This document shows, piece by piece, positions 31,454-35,697 of a stretch of 64,000 nt of DNA. The position numbers and the translations under genes were made by a program. The stretch is from Neorhizobium galegae (GTDB lineage Bacteria > Pseudomonadota > Alphaproteobacteria > Rhizobiales > Rhizobiaceae): positions 1,488,001-1,552,000 of the forward strand of contig NZ_JAGIPG010000002.1 of assembly GCF_017877055.1 (NCBI RefSeq), read 5' to 3'. The notes beneath the pieces are model-generated. The model did no database searches. It was not told where the DNA came from and saw only the letters and a list, made by a program, of their open reading frames with translations. Position 1 is the first letter of the stretch, and every line of letters starts with the position of its first letter.

Positions 31454-31498
31454 CGGTCTCCTCTGCCTTCACGGGCGGGGGAGGCCGTTTTTCGTTTT
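31454..31498 (+). terminator. Rho-independent terminator
   Basis: CGGTCTCC and GGAGGCCG pair over 8 positions with one G-U. An inner stem (CTGCC/GGCGG) lies within the loop, and TTTTTCGTTTT follows. It ends plus-strand transcription just where the opposing minus operon finishes. Confidence 0.65.
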
Positions 31499-31595
31499 AG
31501 CCCAGAGCGAATCCGAGGATAAGCCGCGCGGCTACCAGCCCGAACAAAACGCACATCACCGCGAAGACGAACCAGTCAGGAATCTTGTGAAACAT
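31497..31595 (-). CDS. Tiny membrane protein at the end of the SOS operon
   Basis: This 32-residue protein (MFHKIPDW start) is almost entirely one membrane span (FVFAVMCVLFGLVAARLILGF). Its start lies 20 nt inside the preceding gene. It is the last gene of the LexA-box operon; its function is unknown. Confidence 0.55.
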   Translation of the reverse strand: MFHKIPDWFVFAVMCVLFGLVAARLILGFALG

Positions 31596-31761
31596 CGGGC
31601 TTCCTGTCCCAATGGGGGTAGTGCTCGGCGCACCACCACCGCATCGGCTGTGCTCCCTTGCCGAAGCCAAGGCCGCCCCATTTGTTACAGCCCTCGACCT
31701 CGCACCAGTGTTCGAAATGAACCGGCGCGGAGGGATGGGTTGTCGTGCGTTCCTCACTCAT
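31576..31761 (-). CDS. Small Cys/His/Trp-rich protein in the SOS operon
   Basis: This 61-residue protein has HWCEVEGCNKWG and WWCAEHYPHW, a CxxxxC/CxxH arrangement that may bind zinc. Its ATG overlaps the SRAP stop as ATGA. A longer open frame to 31875 lies inside the SRAP gene and is not used. The function is unknown. Confidence 0.68.
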   Translation of the reverse strand: MSEERTTTHPSAPVHFEHWCEVEGCNKWGGLGFGKGAQPMRWWCAEHYPHWDRKPDVSQDS

Positions 31762-32432
31762 AGCAGCGGCGGTTCCTCTTCCATGGGCTTCGCCGGCGGC
31801 TCCACGATCACCAGCATGTTTCCCGGTAGCGGTCGCTGCAGGTGCTTTGCTTCTTCCCACGGCGCCGTGAGCCACATGTCGACCTCTTCCGGCGTTGTCA
31901 GGATCGCCGGCATTGCCTTTTCATGGATCGGAGAGACGATCTCGTTCGGCGAGGTGGTCAGGAATCCGAACAACTCATATTCGCGCTCTCCGTCGCGGAC
32001 CTTGCGAATACCGCGCCAGGGCGTCCAGAAGCCGGCGAAGAACATCAAGGGGCGATCCTCGCTGCCGGCGAACCAGGCGTTCGGCACGCGGCCGCCCATG
32101 ACCTTCCTTGCAGGATCCGGTTCCGCGAAAGACGTGAAGGGGACAACGCAGCGGCTGGTTGGGCCGAGCCAACGCCTCCAGTGCGGCGAGCTGACATTGC
32201 GGATGTTCGTCACGCCTGGATCGTAGTTTTTCACGAAGGCCGGCGGCGACGGCATGCCCCATGTCAGACTGGCGATCTCCCGCTGCCCATCCTCCCCGAC
32301 GCGGACGACAGGCGCCTGATAGCCGGGATAGACATCAAGCGAGGGCTGGTTCCAGCCGGCCTTGTCCCGGAAGGACTTGGTGAACTGCAGAACAGCCTCT
32401 CGGCTCGTGGTGACATTGTAGAGGTTGCACAT
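31758..32432 (-). CDS. SRAP/YedK-family SOS-associated peptidase-like protein
   Basis: This 224-residue protein starts MCNLYNVT, giving the catalytic Cys at position 2. It contains RCVVPFTSFAEP (the Glu of the family) and PIHEKAMPAIL (the His). SRAP proteins (HMCES/YedK) form a stable link to abasic sites in single-stranded DNA. It is slightly divergent from host copies and sits in a prophage operon with a LexA box, so it should be made after DNA damage. Confidence 0.9.
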   Translation of the reverse strand: MCNLYNVTTSREAVLQFTKSFRDKAGWNQPSLDVYPGYQAPVVRVGEDGQREIASLTWGMPSPPAFVKNYDPGVTNIRNVSSPHWRRWLGPTSRCVVPFTSFAEPDPARKVMGGRVPNAWFAGSEDRPLMFFAGFWTPWRGIRKVRDGEREYELFGFLTTSPNEIVSPIHEKAMPAILTTPEEVDMWLTAPWEEAKHLQRPLPGNMLVIVEPPAKPMEEEPPLL

Positions 32433-32438
32433 TCACTC

Positions 32439-32915
32439 TCACCTCGGCAGTGACGAAATATCGATTACGCTATCGTATTTTTTGCATTCTTTGCAAAGCA
32501 GCTTGCTCTCGAGCTCTTTTAAGCGGGCATTGGGTCCGTATCGTCGGGCGAGATTGCTCTTATTGAGCGGCCCACGCCGCCCGCAACGGCATCTGCCGTG
32601 GAGCACCTCCCATTCCTGAAGATCAGCCAGACGTTTGCCCAGAGCGATTTCATAGACCTCGCGGCTCACCATCCCGCTCTTCGCCATCCATTCCTCGTGT
32701 GTAAAATAGTAGACCAGGCTGCAGCGGTTATAAAATCCTTCCTTCGAACGTTTGCAGCCCAACGTTTTGCACAGATCGCCGAGTAGGCCCGGCATATCCG
32801 CATCGCCGTGGTCGTTGAAAAGAGCGTCACCCTCGAAGGTCTTTAGGATGTCGCAGTCCTCGCAGATCACTTTGATCTTCTGCCCTCGATAGTCGGAAAG
32901 CGTCGAGGACTTCAT
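32439..32915 (-). CDS. Cys-rich zinc-finger-like protein in the SOS operon
   Basis: This 158-residue protein begins MKSSTLSDYRGQKIKVICEDC. It has further Cys pairs (CRCGRRG and LLCKECKKY) that could hold zinc, and a central part CSLVYYFTHEEWMAK. The start at 32915 overlaps the previous stop by ATGA. Related proteins occur in rhizobial prophages. The function is unknown; a nucleic-acid-binding role is possible. Confidence 0.72.
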   Translation of the reverse strand: MKSSTLSDYRGQKIKVICEDCDILKTFEGDALFNDHGDADMPGLLGDLCKTLGCKRSKEGFYNRCSLVYYFTHEEWMAKSGMVSREVYEIALGKRLADLQEWEVLHGRCRCGRRGPLNKSNLARRYGPNARLKELESKLLCKECKKYDSVIDISSLPR

Positions 32916-33148
32916 GGGGTCTTGGTGTCCCCCGCGATGCGCTCGTATGCCGGCCGCCATCCGCGGGCGAAACCTCGGCTGCCGGCGAACTCAGCCAAAG
33001 CCAATTGCTTTCGTAAATGTCTGTTGTCCTCCAGCAGCGTCGCGATCGCCGCTTTCGCATCGTCGTCGTGCCAGGCGAGCACTGCCTCGATCTCCCATTG
33101 GGTGTCGATTTCGGCTGACGTCTGGGGTTCGGGCTGCATGGTCATCAC
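32912..33148 (-). CDS. Small acidic helical protein in the SOS operon
   Basis: This 78-residue protein has an acidic helix (TQWEIEAVLAWHDDDAKAAI) followed by LLEDNRHLRKQL, a short coiled-coil-like segment. ATGA overlaps occur at both ends. No family is recognised. Confidence 0.65.
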   Translation of the reverse strand: MMTMQPEPQTSAEIDTQWEIEAVLAWHDDDAKAAIATLLEDNRHLRKQLALAEFAGSRGFARGWRPAYERIAGDTKTP

Positions 33149-33393
33149 ATTTCCAGATTAAGGAGGAGGGGAGCAGGATCCGCGTCGACCGTCTCAACCG
33201 CGCGCGGTTTCCTGGGAGCGGCAGCGCGTCGCTTCGATCTCTTCTGCGGCAAATCAGACGACAGCTCCAGCGGAGCGGCTGGGGGTGGGCTATCTTCCCT
33301 TGCCAAAGGCGGTTCCGCCGCTTCTGGCTCCACGAGTACGGCAACAGCCGGGCTTGGCGTCGCTTTGCTTTCCGACTTTGCAAAACGTATCAT
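33145..33393 (-). CDS. Low-complexity basic/proline-rich protein in the SOS operon
   Basis: This 82-residue protein has a Pro/Ala/Glu-rich N-terminal half and a basic patch (PQKRSKRRAAAPRKPR). It looks disordered. The overlaps with both neighbours by 4 nt support it as a real gene. Confidence 0.6.
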   Translation of the reverse strand: MIRFAKSESKATPSPAVAVLVEPEAAEPPLAREDSPPPAAPLELSSDLPQKRSKRRAAAPRKPRAVETVDADPAPLLLNLEM

Positions 33394-33854
33394 TGGCGAG
33401 CCTCCTCAGGCTGTTCGTGGCCCAGAACCCGATAGTGCAGCTCCTCTCCATCGAAGCACTTGGTTATGCCGACGATTGGCGGCTTGCCGTCTTCCGCAAG
33501 CTTTTCCTGTTGACGCTTGATTGCGTGCTCCGGGCTATCACAATCGGGCCATCCCGCAATTGCCTGCTTGGGGATCTCGCTACCCGCATCGGCCGGTACA
33601 CCGCTGTTCCAGACGATGAGGCCGACCCTCGTGGTCGTGCTGTAAGCGACCTCCAGCCAAGAGATGGTTGGCCATTTGAGCGTACCCTGACGCGCTGAGA
33701 TGTCGGCCGAATAGACTTCGTACGCTGCTTGGCCGCCATAGCTCTCCATCAGCTCGATCAATTTCGGCGACGGCTCCCGATCGCTTTCCGCCAACTCCCA
33801 AAAATACTCGATATTGGGAACATCGGGATCAATGACCTCCAGAACGTCAGGCAT
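33390..33854 (-). CDS. First gene of the SOS operon, hypothetical
   Basis: This 154-residue acidic protein starts MPDVLEVIDPDVPNIEYF and includes SWLEVAYSTTTRVGLIVWN. I chose the ATG at 33854 because AAGGAG lies 6 nt upstream. An ATG at 33917, with GAGG before it, would add 21 residues but leaves a leader of only about a dozen bases after the predicted promoter. The function is unknown. Confidence 0.68.
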   Translation of the reverse strand: MPDVLEVIDPDVPNIEYFWELAESDREPSPKLIELMESYGGQAAYEVYSADISARQGTLKWPTISWLEVAYSTTTRVGLIVWNSGVPADAGSEIPKQAIAGWPDCDSPEHAIKRQQEKLAEDGKPPIVGITKCFDGEELHYRVLGHEQPEEARQ

Positions 33855-33929
33855 GGCTACTCCTTCGCGCCGAAGCGCGGTCAAACTGTAGGTGATACGT
33901 GGATAGCCGCCCGCCATGGCGGCCTCGAT

Positions 33930-33944
33930 GTTCTAATTATGTTC
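33930..33944 (-). promoter_or_regulatory. LexA (SOS) box, alphaproteobacterial type
   Basis: GTTC-TAATTAT-GTTC is a perfect match to the alphaproteobacterial LexA site GTTC-N7-GTTC. It overlaps the -10 element of the promoter that reads into the minus-strand operon, so LexA binding would block polymerase. Confidence 0.82.
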
Positions 33945-33963
33945 TCATATGCCGGCGAGTCAA
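33936..33963 (-). promoter_or_regulatory. Sigma70-type promoter of the SOS operon
   Basis: On the minus strand TTGACT (-35, 33958-33963) is followed after 16 nt by CATAAT (-10, 33936-33941). The first gene starts 76 nt beyond the LexA box. Confidence 0.68.
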
Positions 33964-34542: not shown

Positions 34543-34712
34543 CAGGAGGATGATAGGGCGCTCACGCCATAAGGACAGATTCCGTGGTCGCGCGGCTAAA
34601 AATCATGTCGCGAGCGGACCCGACATCTGTTCACGAAGATCCGTTCGTGGTGTGGTTGATGAACCGCGCCACCGTGGCGCGCCCTCCGCAAAGGCCAACG
34701 ATCGGGATTTAC

Positions 34713-35441
34713 ATGGCAGAAGGTCAAGACCTGGTAATCGCAATAGCGACCGAAGTGGCGCAGCAGATCGCGAAAGACGCCTACTCTGATGGATTTTCAC
34801 CGGCAATGAGACAGTCCGGGTCAATCCTGTCAGATATGATAAAGACGCTGCACCTGGCCTTGGCGCCCATCCAGTTCACAGCTGCCATCCAAGACAGATA
34901 TCGTCAGTTTCTGAACACTGCCATCCGCAGGGTTCCCGAAGCCAGCAGAATTGCGCCACCGCCTCAGATCCTTGGCCCGGTGCTGGAAGGCATCAAATAC
35001 GAACCCATTGACGGAGATATCGCAAAGCTGTTCTCAAATCTGCTTTCCAGAGCATTTGACAAGGACCGTGTGAACGAGGCTCATCCCGCCTTCCCGTCGA
35101 TTATCCGTCAATTATCTTCTGATGAGGCTGTCCTGTTGGAGGCCATAGCCACACCAGGTGGACTTGGTTTTGAAGTGGAAATCATTAAGGATTACAGCGC
35201 AGACCCGCCAAGCCTTAAACGTCAACGCTCTTACAATCTGGCTCCCACAGCGCTGATTAGCTTTCGCGAAAATATCGAGATGTATGTATCGCACTTGGCC
35301 AACCTCGGGCTTACCGAGCATCATCAAGTGCGAATCGGAGAACCCCCCGATGAGCGAAACGGCGAATTATTTGAGATTTACTTCTATGAAATCAGCTTCA
35401 CTCGGTTCGGACGGACATTCTGGGAAGCCGTCAGTGACTAA
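34713..35441 (+). CDS. DUF4393 / Abi-alpha family protein, likely phage-exclusion gene
   Basis: This protein of 242 residues (from the ATG at 34713; the frame is open to a GTG at 34584) carries the DUF4393 pattern: QILGPVLEGIKYEPIDGDI, then LFSNLLSRAFDKDR, and HPAFPSIIRQLSSDEAVLLEAI. The family contains the abortive-infection protein Abi-alpha. It is the last gene before the attachment site, a common place for prophage defence cargo. It is noticeably AT-richer than the structural genes. Exclusion of other phages is inferred. Confidence 0.78.
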   Translation: MAEGQDLVIAIATEVAQQIAKDAYSDGFSPAMRQSGSILSDMIKTLHLALAPIQFTAAIQDRYRQFLNTAIRRVPEASRIAPPPQILGPVLEGIKYEPIDGDIAKLFSNLLSRAFDKDRVNEAHPAFPSIIRQLSSDEAVLLEAIATPGGLGFEVEIIKDYSADPPSLKRQRSYNLAPTALISFRENIEMYVSHLANLGLTEHHQVRIGEPPDERNGELFEIYFYEISFTRFGRTFWEAVSD

Positions 35442-35520: not shown

Positions 35521-35620
35521 ATGCACTGATCTTCGTATTTTGAGCGGTTTTTGTTCCGTTTTCCCCTTTCGGGGAGAACATCCAAAATCCTGATTTTGAC
35601 TGAGATTTCAAGGGGATAAT

Positions 35621-35697
<77 letters not shown>

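Follow-up and report, generated by a model that had tools for sequence, protein, structure and literature searches.

What would a temperate phage gain from placing a gene for an SRAP-family protein, together with six partner genes, behind what looks like an operator of the host DNA-damage response? The question is raised by a seven-gene operon on the minus strand of a 64,000-nucleotide stretch of Neorhizobium galegae DNA (contig NZ_JAGIPG010000002.1, positions 1,488,001 to 1,552,000; hereafter the window, whose numbering is used below), for which an original prediction, made from the sequence, proposed a LexA-controlled damage response. We estimate, with a probability of about 0.62 and from comparative sequence, that the operon is a LexA-repressed repair island at the edge of a temperate phage that would shield abasic sites during DNA damage or prophage induction. 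LexA control is strongly supported by the comparison of homologous loci; of the predicted damage-responsive regulation, the operator conserved at SRAP and g3 loci is the part that stands. The locus appears to be better described as a modular SOS island, with g3 (the third gene) as the signature gene and a cargo that often but not always includes SRAP.

The predicted LexA operator, GAACATAATTAGAAC on the operon strand, is a perfect GTTC-N7-GTTC box (33930-33944, minus strand; identified by the motif and by like operators upstream of homologous operons), within which sits the -10 element of a sigma70-type promoter recognized by sequence (33936-33963, minus strand; -35 TTGACT at 33963-33958, -10 CATAAT at 33941-33936, spacer of 16 nucleotides (nt)), exactly as originally predicted. 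GTTCN7GTTC is the published LexA motif of Caulobacter (PMC12700426), and its position over a promoter is the arrangement expected in an alphaproteobacterial LexA regulon. Between the two att repeats of the prophage, this is the sole AT-rich box, that is, one with at least 5 A/T among the 7 spacer bases, a filter that was chosen after the host sites and the first phage sites were known. Downstream of the promoter, seven minus-strand open reading frames (ORFs), g1 to g7, follow with the tight packing that had been claimed, all six joints being overlaps or gaps of less than 10 nt: g1/g2 overlap by 4, g2/g3 are separated by 2 (ATG start) or overlap by 4 (GTG start), g3/g4 overlap by 4, g4 and SRAP (g5) are separated by 6, SRAP/g6 overlap by 4 and g6/g7 by 20.

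The evidence for the operator comes from homologous loci. Relatives of the SRAP gene were found at 53 loci on viral contigs and in 8 of 50,697 phage records. The viral loci and four phage records were grouped at 90% identity, leaving out of the box clusters two loci in which the SRAP start is missing (L064 and L099), which yielded 22 representatives with at least 1 kb of upstream sequence. An AT-rich box is present within 2 kb upstream of SRAP in 14 of the 22 representatives (in 15/22 clusters if any member is counted), compared with a mean of 0.19 and a maximum of 3 among shuffled representatives (200 rounds) and with 0/22 clusters for the reversed motif; without the AT-rich filter, the counts are 15/22 representatives versus a shuffle mean of 1.3 (maximum 6) and 16/22 clusters versus 3/22 for the reversed motif.

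The viral contigs were searched again with alignments of g3 and of g6. The g3 search recovered 72 loci in 33 clusters, which overlap the SRAP loci, and an AT-rich box lies within 1.5 kb upstream of g3 in 33/33 clusters, versus 0/33 for the reversed control and 3/132 for control windows elsewhere in the same loci. SRAP is found within 3.5 kb of g3 in 19 of these clusters, and the box is present in all 14 clusters that have no SRAP within this distance. All 33 boxes are in the same orientation, the box hexamer is CATAAT in 19 of the 33 representatives, and TTGAC precedes the hexamer by 16 nt in 24 of them, by 17 nt in 6 and by 18-20 nt in 3; among GC-rich GAACN7GAAC sites in the viral loci, TTGAC occurs at promoter spacing in 1/72. 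Directly 3' of the box, a GC-rich hairpin folds in many of the 33 g3 leaders (a GCCGCC..GGCGGC-like stem, a few bases from the box), perhaps a hairpin of the 5' leader or else another operator. For g6, the best 80 of 174 viral loci form 36 clusters (28 with at least 1 kb upstream), of which 16 contain SRAP and 14 have the box within 1.5 kb, with none in the control.

The same pattern extends to cellular genomes, although viral contigs and genomes may stem from the same strains. With 59 matches among 247 sampled genomes, g3 is common in the host's family; 30 g3 loci were taken from the matching genomes, and in the 29 that remain when the locus of the window itself is left out, the box is found in 25, TTGAC at promoter spacing in 21 and SRAP in 9, versus 0 boxes in the control. 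Among the best 80 of 115 g3 loci in named genome records, the closest to the window being a 96% relative in Neorhizobium tomejilense, the box is present at 73 loci and in 42 of 44 clusters (control 0), with TTGAC in 40 clusters, SRAP in 15, an ATP-dependent ligase in 12 and Ku in 0. R. johnstonii 3841 contributes three g3 loci preceded by a box, two of which (L359 and L387) show TTGAC at promoter spacing and one of which (L373) does not. In a class-wide sample g3 was detected in 3/385 genomes, so it belongs mainly to rhizobia and their near relatives; the promoter-operator pattern was detected in 16 of these 385 genomes, at 19 sites versus 1 for the reversed control.

The host genome (6.35 Mb, 11 contigs) contains 185 GTTCN7GTTC sites versus 126 for the reversed motif. 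When WWT is required before the second GTTC (GTTCNNNNWWTGTTC), 13 sites remain in the 6.35 Mb versus 4 in the reversed control. One of them is this operon, and 7 of the other 12 are located at DNA-repair or recombination genes, namely uvrA, HhH-GPD, recA, ComM-like, RadA-like and Y-polymerase genes (identified with Pfam) and an imuA-like gene (identified by eye).

The predicted prophage location is borne out by an integrase, att repeats, a gpA-type terminase and a lambda-type portal, the set that characterizes an integrated prophage of the lambda type. The prophage is about 54 kb long, is bounded by direct repeats of the 3' end of a tRNA-Pro gene and occupies, with its larger part, the leftmost 35.7 kb of the window; attR, recognized by the repeat match, is the 3' end of tRNA-Pro(ggg) (35597-35665, minus strand), repeated at the left end of the prophage (L133, 1788-1858). 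The operon lies near the right end, with the box 1.65 kb from attR. The CI-like repressor of the prophage has a Peptidase_S24 domain, and a Ser, a Lys and an Ala-Gly bond are visible by eye in its sequence, which we take to be the Peptidase_S24 motif; given this domain, the prophage's own switch looks separate from the operon.

The SRAP gene (g5; 31758-32432, minus strand; 224 amino acids (aa)) belongs to the SRAP/YedK/HMCES family, as had been predicted: residues 1-207 match PF02586 with an E-value of 2.5e-24 and 86.5 bits versus a cut-off of 27.1. Across 18 aligned sequences C2, N76, E104 and H170 are invariant, and these presumably correspond to the catalytic residues of YedK. YedK and HMCES couple via Cys2 to abasic sites in single-stranded DNA, guarding forks from strand breakage. 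The ratio of non-synonymous to synonymous substitution rates (dN/dS) of SRAP is about 0.04-0.07 in comparison with the related loci L049 and L050; the PHROGs match is phrog_1599, of unknown function. By sequence alone, AGR_pAT_140 (PDB 2aeg) falls into the same SRAP subfamily (E-value 1.8e-63). The host chromosome encodes another SRAP (G000:C2:1338317-1338979, plus strand), with a stronger match to PF02586.

Among the partners, g3, g4 and g6 show conservation and constraint at the sequence level, and their copies in the window match no curated family: Pfam gives no match above cut-off for any of the seven genes besides SRAP, and NCBIfam and PADLOC, searched up to an E-value of 0.01, give none for SRAP, g1, g3, g4 and g6. 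The g3 product (32912-33142, minus strand; 76 aa, or 78 aa from the GTG at 33148), delineated by alignment, model and loci, has invariant H, D, A, L and Q residues and a conserved GxxRGWxP tail and is predicted to form a two-helix hairpin (predicted local distance difference test score, pLDDT, 79), with dN/dS of about 0.04-0.07 versus L049 and L050 and 0.20 versus L056. The prediction of two Cys-rich candidate zinc proteins, g4 and g6, is upheld by Cys/His positions that are kept across homologues. For g4 (32439-32915, minus strand; 158 aa), the alignment contains eight well-conserved cysteines in two clusters (C18, C21, C54, C65 and C109, C111, C141, C144), and dN/dS is 0.15 versus L049 and L056. 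The putative zinc finger of g6 (31576-31761, minus strand; 61 aa), C-x4-C-x18-C-x2-H, consists of C20, C25, C44 and H47, which are invariant in 23 aligned sequences, and its dN/dS is 0.11-0.15 versus L049 and L050. The EsV-1-7 cysteine motif (PF19114) scores 13.2 bits with the g6 of the window (cut-off 25) and 27.5 bits with the homologue in L051; in PHROGs, g6 corresponds to phrog_29777, of unknown function, and g4 matched weakly.

The remaining genes have a narrower distribution. The ORFs of g1 (33390-33854, minus strand; 154 aa, no family match) and of g2 (33145-33393, minus strand; 82 aa, Pro/Ala-rich) are supported by homologues and by dN/dS, about 0.10-0.13 for g1 and 0.15-0.25 for g2 versus L049 and L050; for g1, the start at 33854, where AAGGAG precedes the ATG, is likelier than that at 33917 (175 aa). 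The micro-membrane protein of the original prediction, g7 (31497-31595, minus strand; 32 codons), does have one hydrophobic stretch and might be a membrane peptide, but it is weakly supported as a gene: at an E-value of 1e-3 it is found only in L048 (100% identical) and in the close relative L049, and the 1 synonymous and 1 non-synonymous codon changes that separate it from the latter are too few to decide. A non-random association of SRAP with its partners, on which the predicted system depended, is apparent for g3, g4 and g6, whose homologues accompany SRAP in phages that have diverged; the other three, g1, g2 and g7, are seen only beside close relatives of the window SRAP, too narrow a distribution to judge. 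The exception is a g1 homologue in L106, located directly downstream of an SRAP that by eye belongs to the more usual subfamily.

In the neighborhoods of SRAP, among 26 clusters, g6 is present in 18, a second zinc family with conserved Cys/His in 13 (on the SRAP strand in 5/18 cases), g4 in 7, the ATP-dependent ligase in 7 and g3 in 6. The ligase matches models of non-homologous end-joining (NHEJ) ligases below their cut-offs. The single Ku match around 57 SRAP loci is in L060, where Ku follows SRAP, and near g3 there are two Ku-like ORFs in L338, where they lie upstream of the box, and two in L339, where they lie downstream of g3; in both pairs, tblastn identified one ORF and inspection by eye the other. 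A nuclease-like family (3 SRAP clusters, 4 ORFs) resembled SNase by eye and was set aside, its representative having no Pfam or NCBIfam match.

The prediction of a new DNA-damage system was partly anticipated. SRAP genes in SOS neighborhoods with Ku, an ATP-dependent ligase and two Zn-ribbon-like domains were described in 2013 by Aravind, Anand and Iyer, who also noted SRAP in temperate phages and proposed it as a damage sensor for lysis (PMC3765255). Conserved Cys/His positions are present here in g4, in g6 and in the second zinc family, and g4 or g6 may be among the two Zn domains of that report. The neighborhoods described there are defined by co-occurrence with dinB, umuCD, imuAB-dnaE2 or Ku, whereas the operon in the window includes none of these genes and no ligase; conversely, the main-text passages of the report mention neither a LexA operator-promoter nor g3.

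Two phages are also close to the operon. In Sinorhizobium phage phi2LM21 (PMC5537653; MF614627), a right-arm cluster behind GAACATTATAAGAAC contains homologues of g3 and g6 and a g4-like C-terminal domain, all upstream of the SRAP gene p58, with an ATP-dependent ligase nearby and a gene order different from that of the window; the main text of the phi2LM21 paper lists SRAP and ligases as extra genes and has no mention of LexA. Agrobacterium phage Rivra (PV764937) has the box, g3, g4, SRAP and g6 in the same order as the window but no g1, g2 or g7 at an E-value of 1e-3, and its shared genes are annotated as hypothetical proteins. For Marinobacter phage PS3, SRAP was suggested to protect phage replication (PMC8424206). 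In the literature searched, which covers few subscription journals, we found no description of a LexA operator-promoter on phage SRAP operons or of g3. To the extent of these sources, the association of SRAP with Ku, ligase and Zn-ribbon proteins and its presence in temperate phages are already known, and the operator-promoter together with g3 is the part for which no description was found.

Other phages carry comparable arrangements. In Paracoccus phage Pyei1, GTTCTCTAAATGTTC is located 356 nt upstream of an SRAP gene that has no g3, g4 or g6 homologue at an E-value of 1e-3; phage SRAP genes may thus have SOS-type boxes outside the island as well. Two phages named for Synechococcus hosts encode an SRAP 50% identical to that of the window, one of them, Ssp-JY39, with a g6 homologue and with GAACAAAAAAAGAAC upstream of SRAP; this host label may deserve a check.

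Several observations weigh against the interpretation of the operon as a LexA-repressed repair island. The box by itself is unremarkable, with 3 occurrences in the window versus 1.85 expected and at least 3 in 28 of 100 shuffles; it exceeds chance because of its AT-rich spacer, its position on the -10 element and its conservation. The promoter-operator pattern proves little in the host genome alone, since it occurs there at 2 sites versus 1 for the reversed control, the other TTGAC-N-GAACN7GAAC site (G000:C2:250382-250419, plus strand) pointing away from a penicillin-binding-protein gene. Five of the 12 other host sites are away from known repair genes (near greA, a penicillin-binding-protein gene and a 2'-5' RNA-ligase-like gene, one within a gene and one without an assigned gene), and no GTTCN7GTTC box was found in the 3.7 kb examined around the chromosomal SRAP of the host. 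Within 2 kb of SRAP, 8 of the 22 representatives have no AT-rich box. SRAP is not obligatory in the island, because 14/33 viral and 29/44 named-genome g3 clusters lack it within 3.5 kb. The ligase is a neighbor rather than an operon member, because it is mostly on the opposite strand (on the SRAP strand in 2/12 cases), and Ku is rare (1/57 SRAP loci, 2/29 family-genome and 0/80 named-genome g3 loci). The AlphaFold2 model of g4 is weak (mean pLDDT 70, predicted template modeling score 0.42), and Foldseek with this model returned nothing below an E-value of 0.001; the top-ranked matches, which included a rubredoxin and a WWE domain, had E-values above 1 and were not used.

Could the operon be an induction switch instead? 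Tum of coliphage 186 is an example of a LexA-controlled induction trigger, and LexA-controlled prophage antirepressors have reportedly been found elsewhere; a small protein (g3 or g1) or SRAP itself might play such a part here, as an antirepressor or damage sensor triggering induction. The small size of g3 and its nearly constant link to LexA boxes fit this possibility, as does the lysis-sensor role proposed by Aravind et al. (PMC3765255). An antirepressor of this type goes with a repressor devoid of a RecA-sensitive domain, and the Peptidase_S24 domain of the CI-like repressor lowers the standing of this reading because RecA can probably relieve that repressor directly. Moreover, the operon is far from the repressor within the prophage, and g3 also occurs at chromosomal and plasmid loci, which may or may not belong to prophages, so a switch function appears unlikely; induction probably proceeds directly via the S24 repressor, with the operon as damage-response cargo. 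Alternatively, the island might mainly raise the survival of the lysogen after damage and have no role in the phage cycle. The g3 loci on plasmids pRL11 and pRLN2 and the position at the prophage edge, 1.65 kb from attR, point in this direction, as do the 34 of 72 viral g3 anchors with less than 4.9 kb of contig upstream. Yet the presence of the island in Rivra, a soil phage with an Agrobacterium host, indicates that it is not confined to integrated or decayed prophages, and a survival role is compatible with a phage role, which makes an exclusively lysogenic function similarly improbable.

Two further alternatives can be given very little weight. Host glycosylase defenses such as Brig1 create abasic sites (PMC11078745), and SRAP, with the zinc proteins, could protect phage DNA from them. 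Under such a scenario, SOS control would be odd for an anti-defense gene needed at entry; deletion of E. coli yedK, the host rather than a phage copy, left Brig1 immunity unchanged (PMC11078745), and the PADLOC search was negative for SRAP, g1, g3, g4 and g6. There is a comparably small chance that the GAACN7GAAC element is bound by a phage-encoded or other repressor instead of host LexA, but the same motif is found at the host recA, uvrA and Y-polymerase genes and is the one published for Caulobacter LexA (PMC12700426).

The side of the prophage facing attR may hold additional cargo. Between the operon and attR, an Abi_alpha protein is encoded (34584-35441, plus strand; PF14337, 3e-32; PADLOC candidate PDC-S47, 2e-27), with a DUF982 gene and a small phage gene adjoining it at the prophage edge, possibly a defense group. 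The same prophage encodes a DUF5131 protein (PF07505, 4e-85; L133, 9124-10224, minus strand).

Returning to the LexA-repressed repair island, in an undamaged lysogen host LexA would occupy GAACATAATTAGAAC over the -10 element and keep the operon off, as the conserved sequence suggests. Once RecA filaments form, LexA would be cleaved and the seven genes co-transcribed; SRAP, which has the requisite residues, would couple via Cys2 to abasic sites in single-stranded DNA and protect forks from strand breakage, and the zinc proteins g4 and g6 together with the small helical g3 may bind DNA or SRAP in support of repair. In other versions of the island, these genes are sometimes adjoined by an NHEJ-like ATP-dependent ligase and, in a few, by Ku. 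The benefit could go to the phage genome when the prophage is induced, to the lysogen once damage has occurred, or to both. Only tentatively, g3 might be regarded as the signature of a mobile rhizobial SOS island, in which a LexA-operator promoter and g3 are combined with interchangeable modules (SRAP, zinc proteins and sometimes end-joining proteins, that is, ligase and rarely Ku) and g3, as a shared adaptor, connects the cargo with stalled forks or with RecA/LexA. For g3, g4, g6 and the second zinc protein, the comparison supplies a regulatory context open to test with a single reporter assay; by linking a phage-encoded SRAP to the SOS control of the host, it also bears on the question why shields for abasic sites are found in temperate phages.

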